From assembly GCF_030056815.1 (NCBI RefSeq), contig NZ_JASHKR010000005.1:1-64000 (forward strand): 64,000 nt of DNA. The letters run 5' to 3'. Both the position numbers and the translations under genes were made by a program. Below the pieces are notes generated by a model. It did no database searches, was not told the origin of the DNA, and saw nothing but the letters and a program-made list of their open reading frames with translations. Shown here piece by piece: positions 44,460 to 51,420 of this stretch; positions within the stretch are counted from its first letter, which is position 1; each line of letters begins with the position of its first letter. The stretch comes from Rhodococcus sp. IEGM 1379 (GTDB lineage Bacteria > Actinomycetota > Actinomycetes > Mycobacteriales > Mycobacteriaceae).

Positions 44460-45164
44460 ATGCGTCTCGACGTAGTCACAATCTTTCCCGAGTATCTCGA
44501 ACCGCTTCGTGCTGCCCTGTTGGGCAAGGCAATCGAACGTGGCTTGATCTCGGTGGACGTTCACGATCTTCGATCCTGGACGCAAGACGTTCATAAGGCC
44601 GTCGACGATTCCCCGTACGGCGGGGGACCGGGCATGGTCATGAAGCCCACGGTCTGGGGTCCCGCCCTCGACGACGTCATCGGACGTTCCGAATCCGAAG
44701 GGCCGGACGACGCGGAAACAATTCTGGTGGTGCCCACTCCCGCCGGTGTTCCGTTTACTCAGGCCACGGCGGAGCGTTGGTCGAAGGCAAGACATCTGGT
44801 CTTCGCGTGCGGTCGGTACGAGGGTATCGATCAGCGAGTCTTCGACGACGCGGCCAAGCGTGTGCGTGTCGAGGAAGTCAGCATCGGTGACTACGTGCTG
44901 ATCGGCGGTGAAGCGGCTGTCCTCGTGATGGTTGAAGCTGTTGTCCGTCTGATGCCCGGTGTTCTCGGCAATCAGCTTTCACACCAAGAGGATTCGTTCT
45001 CCGACGGACTTCTCGAAGGCCCCAGCTACACACGCCCGGCGGTGTGGCGAGATCTCGAGGTTCCGCCGGTTCTGCTGTCCGGCGATCATGCCAAGGTCAA
45101 GGCGTGGCGTCGTGAGCAGTCCTTGCAGCGCACCGCCGAGCGTCGACCGGATCTGCTTCCCTAG
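44460..45164 (+). CDS. trmD: tRNA (guanine37-N1)-methyltransferase
   Basis: The 234-residue trefoil-knot methyltransferase has the start RLDVVTIFPEYLEPLR, DDSPYGGGPGMVMKP, ACGRYEGIDQRV and SIGDYVLIGGEAAVLVMVEA. It modifies G37 to prevent frameshifting. It ends the rpsP operon. The stop codon overlaps the end of the minus-strand reductase remnant, which marks the edge of the accessory insertion. Confidence 0.98.
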   Translation: MRLDVVTIFPEYLEPLRAALLGKAIERGLISVDVHDLRSWTQDVHKAVDDSPYGGGPGMVMKPTVWGPALDDVIGRSESEGPDDAETILVVPTPAGVPFTQATAERWSKARHLVFACGRYEGIDQRVFDDAAKRVRVEEVSIGDYVLIGGEAAVLVMVEAVVRLMPGVLGNQLSHQEDSFSDGLLEGPSYTRPAVWRDLEVPPVLLSGDHAKVKAWRREQSLQRTAERRPDLLP

Positions 45165-45387
45165 TTATTTCTCGTCAGCCAGGTGACGCTCGCGCCGTTG
45201 TCGAAAGACTCGGTGGCGGTGGGGGCGAACAGTGTCGGCTCGAAAGTTCCGGCAAACATCGGCACTCCCGCACCGGCCACCACTGGATATCTCTTGATAA
45301 TCAACCCATCGATTTCGGGAAGCAGCGCTCCCGCGAGTATTCCGTCGCCGTACAGCCAGATATCTTGTCCTTCTTGCCTCGCGACTA
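45161..45387 (-). pseudogene. C-terminal remnant of a RibD-C/DHFR-family reductase
   Basis: One minus-strand frame reads QEGQDIWLYGDGILAGALLP, then EIDGLIIKRYPVVAGAGVPM, then FAGTFEPTLF, ending in a TAG at 45161-45163. This is the last third of the dihydrofolate-reductase-like (RibD C-terminal) family, which normally has a GKDIWLxGGG motif followed by LLPEID. No start codon or N-terminal part is present, because the frame runs into the end of the gtrA gene. It is a truncated relic, not a gene. Its 3' end overlaps the trmD stop. Confidence 0.85.
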
Positions 45388-45831
45388 GGGCTGGCCAGCC
45401 GGGCTGCGCCGGAACGAGAAGTAGCGGTGCCCGAAGAAGCTCACTCCGGCCACGATCAGCATCACCACTGCCTGCGCCGGTAGTGGTGGCGCATGGAAAA
45501 CGGACACGGCAATTGTCGCCAGAATCAGGTTGAGAGCAAGTCCGCCTGAGTTGACGACGACAAACGCCGCGAGATCGCGGGCCACCTGGCCGCGTACCCG
45601 GAAAACCAGTGTCCGGTGCAGCACAAACGCTATGAGAACGCTGACGCTGTAGGCGCCGATCAGTGCAACCTGGTACAGCTTCTCATTGTCGAGGATCAGC
45701 ATCCACACAACGAACAGCAGGTACCCGATCACCGTATTTGCCACTCCGACAATGGCAAACGCGATCGGCTGATGTTTCACGATCCGCAGAAGCGGCCCGG
45801 GGTCGGCCGTGTGGGCATCTTCGGTGCTCAC
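45385..45831 (-). CDS. GtrA-family small membrane protein
   Basis: The 148-residue protein has four transmembrane segments (AFAIVGVANTVIGYLLFVVW, ALIGAYSVSVLIAFVLHRTL, a third at LAAFVVVNSGGLALNLIL, and VVMLIVAGVSFFGHRYFSFR), ending in the family's HRYFSFR motif. GtrA/GtcA proteins are thought to flip or present polyprenyl-phosphate sugars. Its GTG start overlaps the stop of the YfhO-type gene by 4 bp, so the two are coupled. Mycobacterial Rv3789 is a family member involved in arabinogalactan. Confidence 0.9.
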   Translation of the reverse strand: MSTEDAHTADPGPLLRIVKHQPIAFAIVGVANTVIGYLLFVVWMLILDNEKLYQVALIGAYSVSVLIAFVLHRTLVFRVRGQVARDLAAFVVVNSGGLALNLILATIAVSVFHAPPLPAQAVVMLIVAGVSFFGHRYFSFRRSPAGQP

Positions 45832-48029
45832 GGTAAAGCGCTCGGAGCATTGGCAATTCGGTCACGTCGACGGCCGCGCAGGTACATCCATTCGAGGACG
45901 CCGAGTCCGGCCAATCCTGCGATCGCCGAGGCGGCACCGATCTTCCAGCCCGGGGGTCGCCAGGTCAGAACCAGTTCGGCATCTTTCGTGCCGGCCGGAA
46001 CGTCCACGGTGACAAAGGACTTCGCGACTACGTCGATGGGTACCGACTCGCCGTTCAACGTCGCCCGGTAGCCCGGCCAGCCCAAGCGTGCGAAGACGAC
46101 CTTTCCGCCGCTCTCCGAACTCACTCGAAGAGTGCTCGACATGTTCGATTCGGCGATCGACGTTGCTTCTACGCCTTGGGTATCGGAGATTCGACCGTTC
46201 CGCGTCGAGACCGGTCCGTCGACCCGTTCGAGTCCCGAAATGAAATTCTCGTGGCCGGGGTAGTCGACCCATTTCCAGCCGTCGGGCGCGGGCCCGCTGC
46301 GAGCATTCGGATACAGGGCGTTCTGCAGGACAACTCGGTCTACGTTCATCAGATCGACGAAGGTGCGGCCGGTGGCCGGTTCGACGCTGAAGGCGCGTCG
46401 GAAAGCGTCGGAGCACACGCTCATGTCCCAACGCATGCACAGGATATCGCCGAAGTAGTAGTGCCCGTTGGGGGTGTAGCCGCTGGTGTAGGTGAGCCCC
46501 AGATCCTTGGGGTAGTTGCCGAATGCGAGTGATCCGTAGGCGCCGCTCAATGTGCGGTCGCCCGGTGCGATCAGAGCGCGATCCGCGAGCTGCAGTGTTG
46601 TGCCGTCGAAATCGGGGAAAGCTGCAGTCATGTCCGAGCGAGATTCGGGAAGATTCCAGCTCATCGGCGTCGGCTGTGCGGCCCGAACCTGGGCGTAGGC
46701 AATGGGGGAGACGGCGACGATCGCGACGATGCAGGCCGCGGCGGTGCCCTTGTTGCAGCCGAGCCAGACCACGGCTGCCCCGAGGCCCGCTACCAGAACG
46801 GCTGAGACGAGGTGCCACTCGAGCAGGCTGGGAGCGGCTGACGCGGAACGCACCAGCAGCAGCCCGATCAGGAGTACCGCAGCGGTGGCGCGGCGTCGCA
46901 GGTTGTCGGTGGTGGCGTATCGGCCCAGGAGCGTGCAGACCAGCACCAGCAGTCCGATTGCAACCATCGGCAGCACGCGGGCAGGCCACCGCAAGGGGCC
47001 GATATTGCTCGGTCCGGCAGTCCACATCAACACGGCCACCGTGAAGATTCCGACGCTGGTCAGTTCGCGCGCCGCACTGCGGGCCTTGCCCCAGTCGATG
47101 AATGCCAGCGCGGGGATCAGGAACCAGGCGATGTAGACCATCGGCATCGTCTGGATATAGCCCCACCAGGAGGTGAAGGCAGGCATGGTGCTGGGCAGGC
47201 TGGCGTTCAGAGATTCCGACCAGGGAACAGCGAGGAATTGGTCGTTCTTGATCTCGGATGCGCCCCGCCAGGTGACATCGGCGGTGAGCACACTCGGGAT
47301 ATACGTGGCCATGCCGGCCAGCGCGGCGCTTGCAGCCACCGCAAGTAGTCGCAGCGACGGTGCCCAGCGTCGTTGGTAGACAACCTCGCCGATGGCCACC
47401 GCAGCGATCATCAGGGCGGATTCGACGGCCGGAAAGACATATTGGACGGATATCGCCAGATACAGGAACACGAAGGTCGGTATAGGCCCGCTCTTGCCGC
47501 GGGAGTACCGGATCGCCGACGCCCACGCCTGCACCATCCAGGCGGTGCCGGTGAACGCTGTCATCCAGCTGGCCTCGTCGAAGAACAGTAAGAATCCGGT
47601 GAAGGGAATTGATACCCCGGCGACCGCAGCCCAAGCCGGCTTCGAACCGTATTCGAGACAGATCCGATACACGCCGAGCCCGAGAATGATCGCAAAGACC
47701 AACTTTACGAGCGTGGCGTACAACGCCAAGTTGTCGAACGACGGCGCGATCAGGTTGATCAGGAGTTGCGGTGGGTTGAGAAGGCCGGCTTCCTCGATGG
47801 CGTAGTTGCCCGCCATCCAATGCTCGGGGATCAACACCGGTAGGTTGCCTGCGCGCAGGTGCTGTCCGAGCATTACCCACAGAGGGGCGTACTGGGACTC
47901 GGTGTCGTCGGTGTAGAAATGGCGAGCATTGGCGAGGATGACCGCCACATATCCCGCGATCACACCGACTGCTGTAACAGCGCCCCATTTGTACACATCG
48001 AGTCGGGCGTGACCACGAGTTTCCACCAC
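45828..48029 (-). CDS. YfhO-type GT-C superfamily membrane glycosyltransferase
   Basis: The 733-residue protein has about 13 transmembrane helices. The first extracytoplasmic loop has the acidic FYTDDTESQYAPLWVML, typical of GT-C enzymes, and the second half is a large external domain (about residues 455-695). The C-terminus has the YfhO hallmark: VVFARLGWPGYRATLNGESV, then VPAGTKDAELVLTWRPPGWK, then a last helix. YfhO proteins use polyprenyl-phosphate sugars to glycosylate surface polymers. It is coupled to gtrA downstream and divergent from the GT2/aminotransferase pair. Starts are GTG codons at 48029 or 48026. Confidence 0.88.
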   Translation of the reverse strand: MVETRGHARLDVYKWGAVTAVGVIAGYVAVILANARHFYTDDTESQYAPLWVMLGQHLRAGNLPVLIPEHWMAGNYAIEEAGLLNPPQLLINLIAPSFDNLALYATLVKLVFAIILGLGVYRICLEYGSKPAWAAVAGVSIPFTGFLLFFDEASWMTAFTGTAWMVQAWASAIRYSRGKSGPIPTFVFLYLAISVQYVFPAVESALMIAAVAIGEVVYQRRWAPSLRLLAVAASAALAGMATYIPSVLTADVTWRGASEIKNDQFLAVPWSESLNASLPSTMPAFTSWWGYIQTMPMVYIAWFLIPALAFIDWGKARSAARELTSVGIFTVAVLMWTAGPSNIGPLRWPARVLPMVAIGLLVLVCTLLGRYATTDNLRRRATAAVLLIGLLLVRSASAAPSLLEWHLVSAVLVAGLGAAVVWLGCNKGTAAACIVAIVAVSPIAYAQVRAAQPTPMSWNLPESRSDMTAAFPDFDGTTLQLADRALIAPGDRTLSGAYGSLAFGNYPKDLGLTYTSGYTPNGHYYFGDILCMRWDMSVCSDAFRRAFSVEPATGRTFVDLMNVDRVVLQNALYPNARSGPAPDGWKWVDYPGHENFISGLERVDGPVSTRNGRISDTQGVEATSIAESNMSSTLRVSSESGGKVVFARLGWPGYRATLNGESVPIDVVAKSFVTVDVPAGTKDAELVLTWRPPGWKIGAASAIAGLAGLGVLEWMYLRGRRRDRIANAPSALP

Positions 48030-48197
48030 GAGTTCCAGACCTTAACATCGGTGACCGGGCGCACGGCGACGCGTGTGTCCGAACTGCCGGGATCATTCGG
48101 GTCCGTCACGTATGCGCGTGTTAAAGTTCGCGACGGTGTGAGGCCGGTGGCGCACATTCTCGGCACAAGCCGAGACCCTCGAAGGGAGCAGAAGCGA

Positions 48198-49214
48198 GTG
48201 CACTCGATTTCCGTCGTAGTGCCCGTTTACCAGGGCGAAAAGACCATTACGGCGTTGGTCGAGGAATTGGATGGACTCTCCGGTCCGTGTGTCAGTTCCG
48301 CCGGTGCCAATTTCAGGGTCGACGAGATAGTTCTGGTTCACGACAACGGACCGGACCGGTCCGATGTTGTTCTTCTCGAGTTGGAACGTCGCTTCGAGCA
48401 GGTTCGTGTTGTCTGGCTCAGCCGCAACTACGGCCAGGACGCTGCGACGATCGCCGGGATGGCTGCTGCTCGCGGTGATTGGGTAGTCACGATGGATGAG
48501 GACGGGCAGCATGATCCGGCCTGTATAGGTTCCTTCCTGGACACGGCACTAGCCGAGCGTGCCGACCTCGTTTATTCCAAGCCAACCAACACCCGTCCGC
48601 ACGGATTCTTGCGAAACGTGACGTCGAGGGGCGCAAAAACTGTTCTGGGGACGATATTTTCGTTCCCGGCATCAGCGCGATTCGAAAGCTTCCGGCTCAT
48701 CCGCGGTGATATCGGTCGGCAACTTGCCGAGGTCGCCGCCAATGGTGCTTACCTTGACGTCGCCTTGACCTGGGTGGTGGGAAACACCGCGTCGGTCCCG
48801 GTTGCTCTGCGCGCCGAAGGGCGCGAGGAGTCCGGATACAACTATCGCCGGCTGTTCTCGTTGTTCTGGAAGATGGTCTTGTGCAGTGGAACCCGCGGCC
48901 TGCGGGTGGTCAGTCTGCTCGGTGTGACTCTTGCGCTCGCCGGTGTGATCGTGGCTGCGGTGATCTTCGTTCAAGCAGTGACCGGCGACAACAACGACCC
49001 CGAGGGGTGGGCGTCGATGATCGTGGCGCTCCTCGTGTGCTCGGGCGCAATCCTGTTCTCACTCGGCCTCATTGCCGAGTATCTCGGTGTGGCACTGCAC
49101 ATCCTGGTGGGCAAACCGCTGTATCTGAAGGTGGATTCGCCGCGGTGGGCGGATTCAGGTTCGAGTCGGCCGAGCGCTGCATGTGAAACGAATGGCGTAG
49201 CTCGTGAACACTGA
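48198..49214 (+). CDS. GT2 polyprenyl-phosphate sugar synthase (GtrB/CsbB-like)
   Basis: The 338-residue protein has a GT-A fold beginning ISVVVPVYQGEKTITALVEEL, the metal-binding motif VVTMDEDGQHDP, and WLSRNYGQDAATIAGMAAA. Two C-terminal transmembrane helices follow (LGVTLALAGVIVAAVIFVQA and IVALLVCSGAILFSLGLIAE). This is the layout of GtrB/CsbB/DPM1-type enzymes, which load a sugar onto polyprenyl phosphate at the inner leaflet. The GTG at 48198 is preceded by GGGAGCAG; an upstream GTG is possible. It overlaps the next gene by 11 bp. Confidence 0.9.
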   Translation: MHSISVVVPVYQGEKTITALVEELDGLSGPCVSSAGANFRVDEIVLVHDNGPDRSDVVLLELERRFEQVRVVWLSRNYGQDAATIAGMAAARGDWVVTMDEDGQHDPACIGSFLDTALAERADLVYSKPTNTRPHGFLRNVTSRGAKTVLGTIFSFPASARFESFRLIRGDIGRQLAEVAANGAYLDVALTWVVGNTASVPVALRAEGREESGYNYRRLFSLFWKMVLCSGTRGLRVVSLLGVTLALAGVIVAAVIFVQAVTGDNNDPEGWASMIVALLVCSGAILFSLGLIAEYLGVALHILVGKPLYLKVDSPRWADSGSSRPSAACETNGVAREH

Positions 49215-50343
49215 CCGCATCATTTTCAGTCGCCCCTACCGCGCCGCAAACGAATTGAACAATCTGGCAACAGTTTTGGAGTCGGATCACATCCACGGAG
49301 ACGGCCGATTCACCGCGTCGTCGACGGCCAGAATCAAGGAGATCACCGGCTCGAAGCATGCACTGCTGACCACGTCCTGCACCCATGCGCTCGAACTGGG
49401 CGGGCTTCTGCTGGAACTCGGACCGGGCGACGAGGTGATCGTGCCGAGTTTCGCATTCAGTTCCGCGGCCACCGCAGTGGCGCTACGAGGCGCGACCATC
49501 GTGTTTGTCGACATCGACTTGGCGACCGGAAACATCGACCCCGCAGCAGTTGCCGACGCAATCACAGCGCGCACCAAAGCTGTACTCGTCATGCACTACG
49601 GCGGTGTGGCCGCTGACATGGAACCGTTGTCGGCGCTCGCCCAGCAGAATGGAATCGCTCTCATCGAGGACAATGCACACGGATTGGGCGGTTCCTGGCG
49701 GGGACGCAAACTCGGCACCATCGGGGCGGTCGGCACCCAAAGTTTCCACGATACGAAGAACATTCACTGCGGCGAGGGTGGCGCATTGTTGCTCTCCGAC
49801 GACACGCTCATGGAGCGCGCCGAGATCATCCGGGAAAAGGGCACGAACCGGGCTCGGTTCCTCCGAGGTCAGGTGGACAAGTACTCGTGGCAGGACATCG
49901 GGTCGAGCTATCTCCCCAGCGAACTGAATGCGGCGGTGCTGGACGCTCAACTGTCCGAGTTCGAAACAGTCCAGGCGCAGCGGCATCGAGTGTGGGACGG
50001 CTACCGCACGGGCTTGGCGGACTGGGCGCAGGAGCGCGACGTCCATCTCATGACGGTCCCGCCGGATTGCGAGCACACCGCTCACCTGTTCTACGTCAGA
50101 ATGCCGAACGAGCAGATTCGTGACGCAATGATTCGCCATGTGGCTGAGCAGGGAATCGTGGCACCGTTTCACTATGTGCCGCTCGATTCCAGTGCCGCCG
50201 GCAAACGCTACGGCAGAACGCCGCAACCGTGCGTCCGCAGTGAATTGTTTTCTACGACTATTCTGCGACTTCCCTTGTGGCCCATGTTGAGCGCAGATCA
50301 GCAAGCTCGTGTTGTGGATGCGGTGACGTCGTACCGCTGGTGA
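49204..50343 (+). CDS. DegT/DnrJ/EryC1 sugar aminotransferase (WecE/RffA-like)
   Basis: The 379-residue PLP enzyme has LTTSCTHALELGGLLLELGP, DEVIVPSFAFSSAATAVALR, IALIEDNAHGLGGSWRGR and the PLP-lysine motif SFHDTKNIHCGEGGALLL. The last two are close to WecE/RffA, which makes dTDP-4-amino-4,6-dideoxygalactose from the 4-keto-6-deoxyglucose nucleotide. The exact product cannot be fixed from sequence alone. It overlaps the GT2 gene by 11 bp, so the aminated sugar is probably what that enzyme loads on polyprenyl phosphate. It is convergent with lppW with 3 bp between. Confidence 0.88.
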   Translation: MNTDRIIFSRPYRAANELNNLATVLESDHIHGDGRFTASSTARIKEITGSKHALLTTSCTHALELGGLLLELGPGDEVIVPSFAFSSAATAVALRGATIVFVDIDLATGNIDPAAVADAITARTKAVLVMHYGGVAADMEPLSALAQQNGIALIEDNAHGLGGSWRGRKLGTIGAVGTQSFHDTKNIHCGEGGALLLSDDTLMERAEIIREKGTNRARFLRGQVDKYSWQDIGSSYLPSELNAAVLDAQLSEFETVQAQRHRVWDGYRTGLADWAQERDVHLMTVPPDCEHTAHLFYVRMPNEQIRDAMIRHVAEQGIVAPFHYVPLDSSAAGKRYGRTPQPCVRSELFSTTILRLPLWPMLSADQQARVVDAVTSYRW

Positions 50344-50346
50344 GAA

Positions 50347-51345
50347 CTACCGGCCCGAAGCTTCCTGTGCCGGTTGATCATTCGGCGTCTGGGGTTTCGA
50401 CCAATCGTCGATTGCTCCGTCGGGGAAGAGGATTTGTGTCACGCCCGTCACGGTGTCGCGTGCATGAAGCGCGCTGTCGTCGTCGATCACATCGGTGAAC
50501 GACGTATCCGGGTAGGCGTCATCGTTGTCGTCGCCCGGATATTGAATGTTCTCGCGAGATGCAATCGCGACGATGTACCTGTTGTCCTCGCCGACGACGG
50601 CTGTGGACAGGTGGAGCCACCGATCGTTGATGCAGCACATCCACCCTTGTTTGACGCCGAGCACCGGCTCGTCGAACAGGGCTTCCGGGAGGCCGAAACG
50701 TTGGTCGTATCCATCAGCCGCTGTGGGTGCGGATTGGCGTAGGTAATTGACGAGCCGACTCGAGCGTTCTTCGCCTAGCTGCGTGACGTCGTCCAGAATG
50801 CCATCGTAGAACGTAATGAGGTCGTGGGACGTGGTCTCGGTGTTCCACCACATGCCGTCCACGGGAGCGGTTGTGGACATCAAGGAGTATCGCTGCGCGA
50901 CTCGGGTCACGACATCGGGGCCGCCGGCGGCGTCCCACAGGGTGTTGGCCGCGTTGTCGTCGGAGGCCTCGAGCATGGCTTCTATGAGCCCCCAGTCGTC
51001 GTCGCTCAGGGCTCGTTCGCCGTGTGCATCCTGCTGCAGCAGGTCTTCGGCGATGAAAAGCTTTGCAACAGATGCGGTTTCGATCTTTTGGTCGCCACCG
51101 ACTTCGAGATACCGGTTCGAGGTTCGGTCGAACACCGAAATCGACACGTCGGCGCCACGTTCGAGCGCCGCGGACTGGGCTTGAACGAGCCTGGCGTCGA
51201 GAGTCGGCGCTATGGGCACGTCGGTATCGGGGAAGGCCGGAGTTTGTGTCGCAGCGCCCACGTCGGGACTTTCCACGCCGCTGCATGATGCTGCAAAAGT
51301 AACTGCAGCCGCTATGGCGAGTATCCGGACGAACCGCGCAGTCAT
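50347..51345 (-). CDS. lppW: LppW-like lipoprotein with class A beta-lactamase/serine hydrolase fold
   Basis: The 332-residue protein has a lipoprotein signal (MTARFVRILAIAAAVTFAAS, then Cys) and a penicillin-recognising domain. SVAK (in ETASVAKLF) is the SxxK motif, SDDNAAN is the SDN motif, and VKQGW stands where KTG is expected. The changed third motif suggests weak or no beta-lactamase activity. The position between trmD and rplS is that of lppW (Rv2905) in M. tuberculosis. The ATG at 51345 has GGGGGA upstream and gives the lipobox near residue 20. Confidence 0.82.
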   Translation of the reverse strand: MTARFVRILAIAAAVTFAASCSGVESPDVGAATQTPAFPDTDVPIAPTLDARLVQAQSAALERGADVSISVFDRTSNRYLEVGGDQKIETASVAKLFIAEDLLQQDAHGERALSDDDWGLIEAMLEASDDNAANTLWDAAGGPDVVTRVAQRYSLMSTTAPVDGMWWNTETTSHDLITFYDGILDDVTQLGEERSSRLVNYLRQSAPTAADGYDQRFGLPEALFDEPVLGVKQGWMCCINDRWLHLSTAVVGEDNRYIVAIASRENIQYPGDDNDDAYPDTSFTDVIDDDSALHARDTVTGVTQILFPDGAIDDWSKPQTPNDQPAQEASGR

Positions 51346-51420
51346 CGTTTCCCCCGGCGCTCTGGAGCCGGCGCTGTCTGCCGGTCTACTTGTCACAGGA
51401 TAGCGGTAGGGTCGGATCTC

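Follow-up and report, generated by a model that had tools for sequence, protein, structure and literature searches.

The first 64,000 nucleotides of contig NZ_JASHKR010000005.1 of Rhodococcus sp. IEGM 1379, here called the window, carry a four-gene cassette in the interval between trmD and lppW. It consists of two divergent gene pairs, one on the minus strand for a GtrA-family protein and a YfhO-like membrane protein of the GT-C type, the other on the plus strand for a family 2 glycosyltransferase (GT2) and a WecE-type transaminase (Table 1). A sequence-only reading of the same DNA had placed GT2, GtrA and GT-C genes here, joined by an amino-sugar transaminase of their own. The observation was confirmed: the four open reading frames (ORFs) are uninterrupted in the window sequence, and the genes overlap by 4 bp in the GtrA/YfhO-like pair (45828-45831) and by 11 bp in the GT2/WecE pair (49204-49214). 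Judged from the sequences, the cassette likely produces a rare amino sugar that is coupled to a membrane lipid, exported and attached to an acceptor in the cell envelope.

All four steps of the following scheme are inferred from protein families. Host RmlA and RmlB would supply deoxythymidine diphosphate (dTDP)-4-keto-6-deoxyglucose; both scored above cut-off in the own genome, where they are encoded on contig C74, and an RmlC-like protein scored below. WecE would aminate this intermediate to a dTDP-4-amino-4,6-dideoxyhexose, the galacto isomer (Fuc4N) being the most probable product. GT2 would then transfer the amino sugar to polyprenyl phosphate at the inner membrane face, GtrA would flip the lipid-linked sugar or assist its flipping, and the YfhO-like protein would use the Asp pair after its first segment to move the sugar onto the envelope acceptor outside the membrane. 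Since the cassette contains no acetylase gene, the amine of the exposed sugar may stay free and positively charged. The 4-amino-4-deoxyarabinose (Ara4N) of Gram-negative bacteria is exposed in this form, as is the galactosamine on mycobacterial arabinogalactan.

WecE scored 498 bits against NF008687 (cut-off 375) and 423 bits against TIGR02379, slightly below the cut-off of 434.85. Its closest solved relatives are PDB entries 6blg (328 bits) and 4piw (322 bits), followed at 161 bits by an ArnB-type enzyme, and the catalytic Lys185 is invariant in the 16 loci aligned. A score above the equivalog model NF008687 together with K185 places the protein in the WecE/RffA class, with the predicted conversion of dTDP-4-keto-6-deoxyglucose to dTDP-4-amino-4,6-dideoxygalactose. 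The models of the Arn system were not reached: WecE obtained 201 of the 631 bits needed for PRK11658 (ArnB), and GT2 remained at 97 bits far under the cut-off of 529 for PRK10714 (ArnC), its nearest curated NCBIfam model.

GT2 matched PF00535 (78.8 bits, cut-off 23.3), stayed below threshold against the PgfS model and has sll0501 and ArnC as its closest solved relatives. Two hydrophobic segments at the C-terminus mark it, by sequence, as a membrane-anchored GT2 of the kind found in multi-component glycosylation systems, and residues D100, E101 and D102 are invariant in 16 sequences. The start codon was taken as the GTG at 48198, where the alignments of relatives begin; the frame itself is open from 47859. 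GtrA matched PF04138 with 70 bits (cut-off 26.1) and, with its hydrophobic segments, is a small membrane protein of the GtrA type. In the YfhO-like protein, 11 hydrophobic segments lie within the first 448 residues; a segment-free stretch (449-696) and a final segment (697-715) follow. Asp41 and Asp42 directly follow segment 1; both are conserved in 38 sequences, and D42 is invariant in 23 sequences including paralogues of about 30% identity. GT-C transferases have been described as possessing 8-13 membrane segments, with a conserved Asp motif placed in a loop on the outer side (PMC8035078). The layout fits this description, the 12 segments and the Asp pair predicting the topology and fold of a GT-C transferase.

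The sequence-only reading was to be given up if the four genes failed to occur together in other genomes. They do occur together. Among the 121 family genomes compared, WecE (E <= 1e-60) and GT2 (>= 64% identity) occupy the identical 16 genomes, and WecE is adjoined by GtrA and GT2 in 16/16 and by a full YfhO gene in 13/16. A second sample of named loci consisted of the best 80 of at least 583 relatives; several Nocardia species are represented more than once, and records near the window's own genome were perhaps left out. In the 55 named loci with WecE at >= 59.5% identity, GT2 (>= 50%) was present in 55/55, GtrA in 50/55 and full YfhO in 46/55. The nine loci without full YfhO comprise one 4-kb contig, two with a fragment, five from Microbacteriaceae and one from Mycolicibacterium sphagni. 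Cassette GT2 was found in 0/25 of the named loci with lower-identity WecE, 12 of which had a remote GT2 and 13 none. By hand count, at least 70 of 401 family genomes contained WecE at >= 60%, with GT2 also listed in 68 of the 70; two candidates were scored per genome, so that these counts are lower bounds, and in G130 and G233 both candidates were WecE copies, leaving GT2 unscored. Gene calls in loci of mixed composition were rough, and co-location therefore rests on tblastn; the GT2 match of L109 is split across two frames. Eight Nocardia loci (L073, L074, L076, L079, L080, L084, L091, L095) possess two full YfhO genes beside a single GT2 and WecE, which suggests two acceptor sites for one donor.

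The genes are also tied together in arrangement and descent. Junctions were taken from 67 distinct loci after removal of four duplicate fetches, and five of these, including the fused locus of M. sphagni, were left out because no start codon lay near the match. GT2 and WecE overlapped in 53 of the remaining 62 (36 by 11 bp, 16 by 4 bp and one by 8 bp), were separated by gaps in seven and lay more than 2 kb apart in two. In M. sphagni both are encoded by one 745-aa ORF with a proline-rich linker; the 13.6-kb locus also encodes a GT4 protein and a GT87-like protein (24.4 bits, cut-off 25), and neither GtrA nor YfhO was matched in it. All four genes point in one direction in L030-L034, which indicates that the linkage outlasts rearrangement. 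Pairwise distances among the four genes were correlated in 43 single-copy loci (Mantel r 0.75-0.92, with 0/2000 permutations as high). A WecE tree of 89 rows (the 80 named loci, the window and 8 others selected) contained a clade of 59 rows, 58 of them with GT2, at a support of 100/95.

Several results weigh against the proposed pathway. The donor used by GT2 is not readable from its sequence, and its nearest curated model describes a UDP-Ara4FN transferase. A profile search of the YfhO-like protein against solved GT-C structures found none, and the protein reached only 24.5 bits against PF09586 (cut-off 28.5), across 48 C-terminal residues. The label YfhO in the sequence-only reading is weak for the window protein by Pfam alone; PF09586 was matched at E <= 0.01 by 38/38 aligned homologues (best 1.1e-13). 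YfhO is cut to about 88 N-terminal residues in 3/16 family loci (L025, L026, L028); these three genomes carry a YfhO of 56-57% identity elsewhere (L036-L038), which may have replaced the transferase. No sigma-70-like promoter was found in the 168-bp divergent gap. Counting against the observation itself, a hexamer-based gene finder whose training set was the window failed to call GT2, and it assigned WecE a coding score of 35 versus 228 for the YfhO-like gene. The GT2-WecE fusion was seen in a single assembly, no match spanning both halves being among those listed from the 401 genomes, and may be an assembly error. On the WecE tree the cassette label occupies more than one clade and required three changes, with 0/500 shuffles as low; 58/63 cassette rows fall in a single clade, and the five Microbacteriaceae rows stand in a sister group together with nine mostly Microbacteriaceae rows without GT2 (93/77). 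Finally, plasmid pdjl-6-5, one of the 12 WecE loci of genus Rhodococcus, has a 65% WecE within a polysaccharide cluster and no cassette GT2 in the 19-kb stretch compared.

The sequence-only reading placed the set as an insertion in a core locus and called for a survey of trmD intervals. WecE was detected in 11/28 Rhodococcus genomes at 12 loci, 10 of which lie within about 6 kb of trmD. Among 27 genomes with a TrmD match, it was present at trmD in 10/10 with TrmD >= 95% identical; nine other Rhodococcus trmD loci were inspected and contained no cassette, four of them showing a recognisable lppW homologue. All four genes were confirmed at trmD in six of the ten (window, L020, L022, L154, L155 and L160). 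They were likewise confirmed there in three named Rhodococcus records; one of these, L057, duplicates the genome of L022. One further Rhodococcus genome (L144) carries the four genes away from trmD. The placement at trmD stands; as to distribution, 45/55 named loci are from Nocardia, and copies also reside on Rhodococcus plasmids. Nor is the suggested setting exclusive to mycolic-acid bacteria, given the five Microbacteriaceae loci with GtrA, GT2, WecE and another large membrane protein.

Complete cassettes were present on two linear plasmids, one from Rhodococcus ruber MSA14 and typed non-mobilizable, the other from Rhodococcus sp. DMU1 and typed mobilizable. On the WecE tree the R. ruber plasmid copy stands beside Nocardia harenae (99/88) and apart from the chromosomal Rhodococcus copies, suggesting that the cassette was transferred between genera. 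Plasmid RQCS_2 of Rhodococcus qingshengii (L162, 7900-11570) has GT2-WecE and a scrap of YfhO without GtrA; the pair shows 94-95% DNA identity to the chromosomal copies L020, L058 and L022/L057, and an IS3 transposase lies about 2 kb away. A 132-bp piece of this plasmid (95-96% identical), which in the chromosome adjoins GT2-WecE and covers the YfhO start, is displaced and inverted. Composition points both ways on a foreign origin of the cassette: the G+C content of its four genes (60.2-63.2%) agrees with that of the window (61.6%), and the low hexamer scores of GT2 and WecE imply a codon use somewhat unlike the rest. A phage origin was considered and rejected; GT2 is 24-28% identical to phage GtrB-type proteins among the 12 of 82 records listed, and the YfhO-like protein matches one unannotated faecal contig. 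This contig, deposited as 'Bacteriophage sp.' (MT836422, 4549-6480), encodes a 31.6% YfhO relative and may be mislabelled bacterial DNA.

Beyond Nocardia and Rhodococcus the donor genes occur with other partners. Four Herbiconiux loci and one Glaciibacter locus, the five from Microbacteriaceae, encode GtrA (41-42%), GT2 and WecE (60-66%) and, in the GT-C position, a membrane protein of about 600 aa that is homologous among the five (607 aa in Herbiconiux) and had no Pfam match. The Herbiconiux and Streptosporangiaceae-type membrane proteins were tried as YfhO relatives and rejected, with profile probabilities of 1.4 and 0.1% in alignments of five sequences each. A search of 296 genomes of the class gave WecE at E <= 1e-120 in 10, seven of them outside the family at 52-54% identity. 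In L103 an RmlC-type isomerase gene and a nucleotidyl transferase gene lie alongside the cassette.

Within the family, 11 loci (L040-L050) combine YfhO (45-52%), GT2 (about 50%) and GtrA. The one annotated, L040, has an SDR epimerase gene beside RmlA/B/C genes where WecE would be, as though one tailoring enzyme had replaced another. An additional anchorless GT2 was found in 11/11, with 276-277 aa in three of four called lengths and 338 aa in the fourth; no match to it was obtained at E 1e-30 in the window-type loci compared. The same additional GT2 (about 276-279 aa) also occurred in L103, L106, L108, L109, L113 and L144, giving 17 matched loci including the query's own. Corynebacterium glutamicum likewise seems to need an extra GT2, Cgp_0396 (PMC9671496).

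The genome of the window contains a second sugar locus on contig C74 (L035, 4335-14037) with RmlA/B, an RmlC-like protein and a 30% YfhO paralogue; sub-threshold members are an LpxA-like acyltransferase, a PseC/ArnB-like transaminase and a dehydrogenase nearest to UDP-GlcNAc 3-dehydrogenase. Given the YfhO-GT2-epimerase set of L040 beside RmlA/B/C, the C74-type position may be a variable site. By their sequences the cassette, the L040-L050 sets and the C74 set look like a single transfer machine with exchangeable sugar makers. On contig C65 (L158, 5808-9142) a GT2-GtrA fusion gene overlaps a PMT_2/YkcB-type gene, likely another three-component system. A PpgS orthologue was sought beside the GtrA genes of C98, C185, C65 and C124, and no separate polyprenyl GT2 was seen there; these four and the window make up five of the seven GtrA-like places of the genome. 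GtrA loci of family genomes, with rough gene calls, were searched for a PpgS-type set and gave no match to the cassette genes.

A broader interpretation is put forward tentatively. GT2-WecE may be a portable donor module, fused into one protein in M. sphagni, that both makes and loads a cationic 4-amino-4,6-dideoxyhexose and pairs with different membrane transferases, namely YfhO (sometimes two) in Nocardia and Rhodococcus, the 607-aa candidate in Herbiconiux and the GT87-like protein in M. sphagni. Moving between Nocardia and Rhodococcus, megaplasmids included, it would switch the cell surface by altering charge and phage receptors, a possible Gram-positive counterpart of the Arn and phage serotype-conversion genes.

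The features of the locus are compiled in Table 1, where the name lppW for the right-flank gene is the label of the sequence-only reading. The RibD_C-domain gene is intact, with an adjoining TetR-family gene, in L020, L022, L155 and L160, and L154 gave no match to either gene.

Table 1 Features of the trmD-lppW interval and its flanks (window positions)
Feature	Position	Strand	Basis or remark
Small GtrA-family membrane protein of 148 aa with 4 hydrophobic segments	45385..45831	-	PF04138; presumed flippase or helper for lipid-linked sugar
YfhO-like GT-C membrane protein, 733 aa	45828..48029	-	PF09586 sub-threshold; homologues; hydrophobic segments; Asp41-Asp42
Divergent intergenic region between the gene pairs, 168 bp	48030..48197	.	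Sequence
Putative GT2 polyprenyl-phosphate sugar synthase, GtrB/ArnC kind, 338 aa	48198..49214	+	PF00535; solved relatives; DED 100-102
WecE/RffA-type pyridoxal phosphate (PLP) transaminase, 379 aa, Lys185 in SFHDTKN	49204..50343	+	NF008687; PDB relatives
trmD, left flank	44460..45164	+	Gene call; empty-site comparison
RibD_C-domain gene remnant, 74 C-terminal residues	45165..45386	-	Comparison with loci of relatives
Gene with a beta-lactamase fold in the lppW position (right flank), outside the cassette	50347..51396	-	PF13354

The first two rival readings concern the acceptor. Microbacteriaceae are not known to possess arabinogalactan; the five loci of that family, with GtrA, GT2, WecE and another large membrane protein in which a shallow profile comparison detected no YfhO similarity, imply that the acceptor need not be this polymer. 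They speak against a narrower form of the proposal, in which the cassette modifies arabinogalactan (or lipoarabinomannan) as the Nocardia/Rhodococcus counterpart of the mycobacterial PpgS-Rv3632-Rv3779 galactosamine pathway. This form is nevertheless a serious possibility, somewhat short of an even chance, as 50/55 named cassette loci belong to Nocardia, Rhodococcus, Antrihabitans or Mycolicibacterium and as galactosamine is added to arabinogalactan by the same logic within this bacterial order, through a GT2, its GtrA partner and a terminal transferase (PMC9671496). By analogy with that addition, arabinogalactan would be a reasonable guess in Nocardia and Rhodococcus. The authors of that study inferred that phage Cog requires the galactosamine modification to infect C. 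glutamicum (PMC9671496). For Nocardia nova, a 2025 study described beta-glucose on the galactan of arabinogalactan (PMC12794489); a word search of its text met none that start with amino, deoxy or galactosamine, and the strain may or may not carry the cassette. An exported protein or glycolipid as acceptor in place of a wall polysaccharide is rather unlikely: the tabulated GtrA and YfhO systems with known acceptor modify teichoic acids (PMC8035078). In favour of this alternative, the flanks vary among loci and indicate no single acceptor, and in other systems GT-C transferases act on proteins as well as polymers.

Two further explanations dispute the pathway as a whole. WecE could be a mere neighbour that serves another pathway, with GT2, GtrA and YfhO adding an ordinary sugar such as glucose or N-acetylglucosamine (GlcNAc). 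Plasmid pdjl-6-5, with WecE and no cassette GT2, would agree with this, as would the lack of cassette GT2 in every named locus whose WecE falls under about 60% identity. The identical genome sets of WecE and GT2, the conserved overlap and natural fusion of their genes, and the copying of the pair without GtrA onto RQCS_2 make it improbable. That the cassette is a decayed or non-functional island is very improbable; the truncated RibD_C-domain gene next to it and the YfhO fragments in three family loci would be in line with decay, but the four ORFs of the window are open, and the WecE lysine, the GT2 DED motif and YfhO Asp42 are invariant among aligned relatives.

A pathway for an envelope amino sugar remains the preferred reading of the cassette, which predicts such a sugar in Nocardia and Rhodococcus. 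A literature search limited to top-ranked titles and the openings of abstracts returned no record of this sugar and no mention of the cassette in either genus. The individual parts and their logic are known; not met in that search were the combination with WecE, the overlap, the fusion and the spread. The four named genes provide a ready genetic handle on the predicted sugar. If the reading is true, cell charge and recognition by phages or antibodies would hinge on a mobile cassette, in which the parts setting the donor and those setting the acceptor would be cleanly separated for study.

Among known systems, the Arn system for Ara4N on lipid A consists of ArnB-ArnC-ArnT-ArnE/F. It shares with the cassette a DegT-family transaminase and a polyprenyl-phosphate GT2, for which ArnC is the nearest curated model. 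The cassette differs in possessing WecE rather than ArnB (328 versus 161 bits), a YfhO-like GT-C protein and GtrA in place of ArnE/F, and it encodes no formyltransferase or deformylase. The PpgS system includes Rv3632, a GtrA-family protein. PpgS-Rv3632-Rv3779 and the C. glutamicum genes ppgS, cgp_0393 and cgp_0658 belong to mycolate bacteria and likewise join a GT2 with a GtrA-type partner and a terminal transferase (PMC9671496); their sugar derives from UDP-GalNAc, whereas that of the cassette would derive from the predicted dTDP-4-amino sugar. The rffA gene in the lipooligosaccharide locus of Mycobacterium marinum shares enzyme name and family with WecE (PMC13354803); its region makes lipooligosaccharide, and the passage concerned names no GT2-GtrA-YfhO set. 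In the three-component pentofuranose systems of Citrobacter youngae, which are similarly built, an extra sugar-tailoring enzyme also decides which sugar is added (PMC11127046), but there an epimerase is expected to act at the lipid-linked stage together with a MATE-type flippase and GT136, in contrast to the nucleotide-sugar transaminase, GtrA and YfhO of the cassette. The general scheme is that of multi-component transmembrane glycosylation, with a GT2, a GtrA-type protein and a GT-C protein (PMC8035078). CsbB-GtcA-YfhO of Firmicutes resembles the cassette in its membrane-anchored GT2, GtrA-type protein and large GT-C protein. The systems tabulated in PMC8035078 add glucose, galactose, GlcNAc or an unknown sugar, and the cassette differs from them by its own transaminase gene, which overlaps the GT2 gene.

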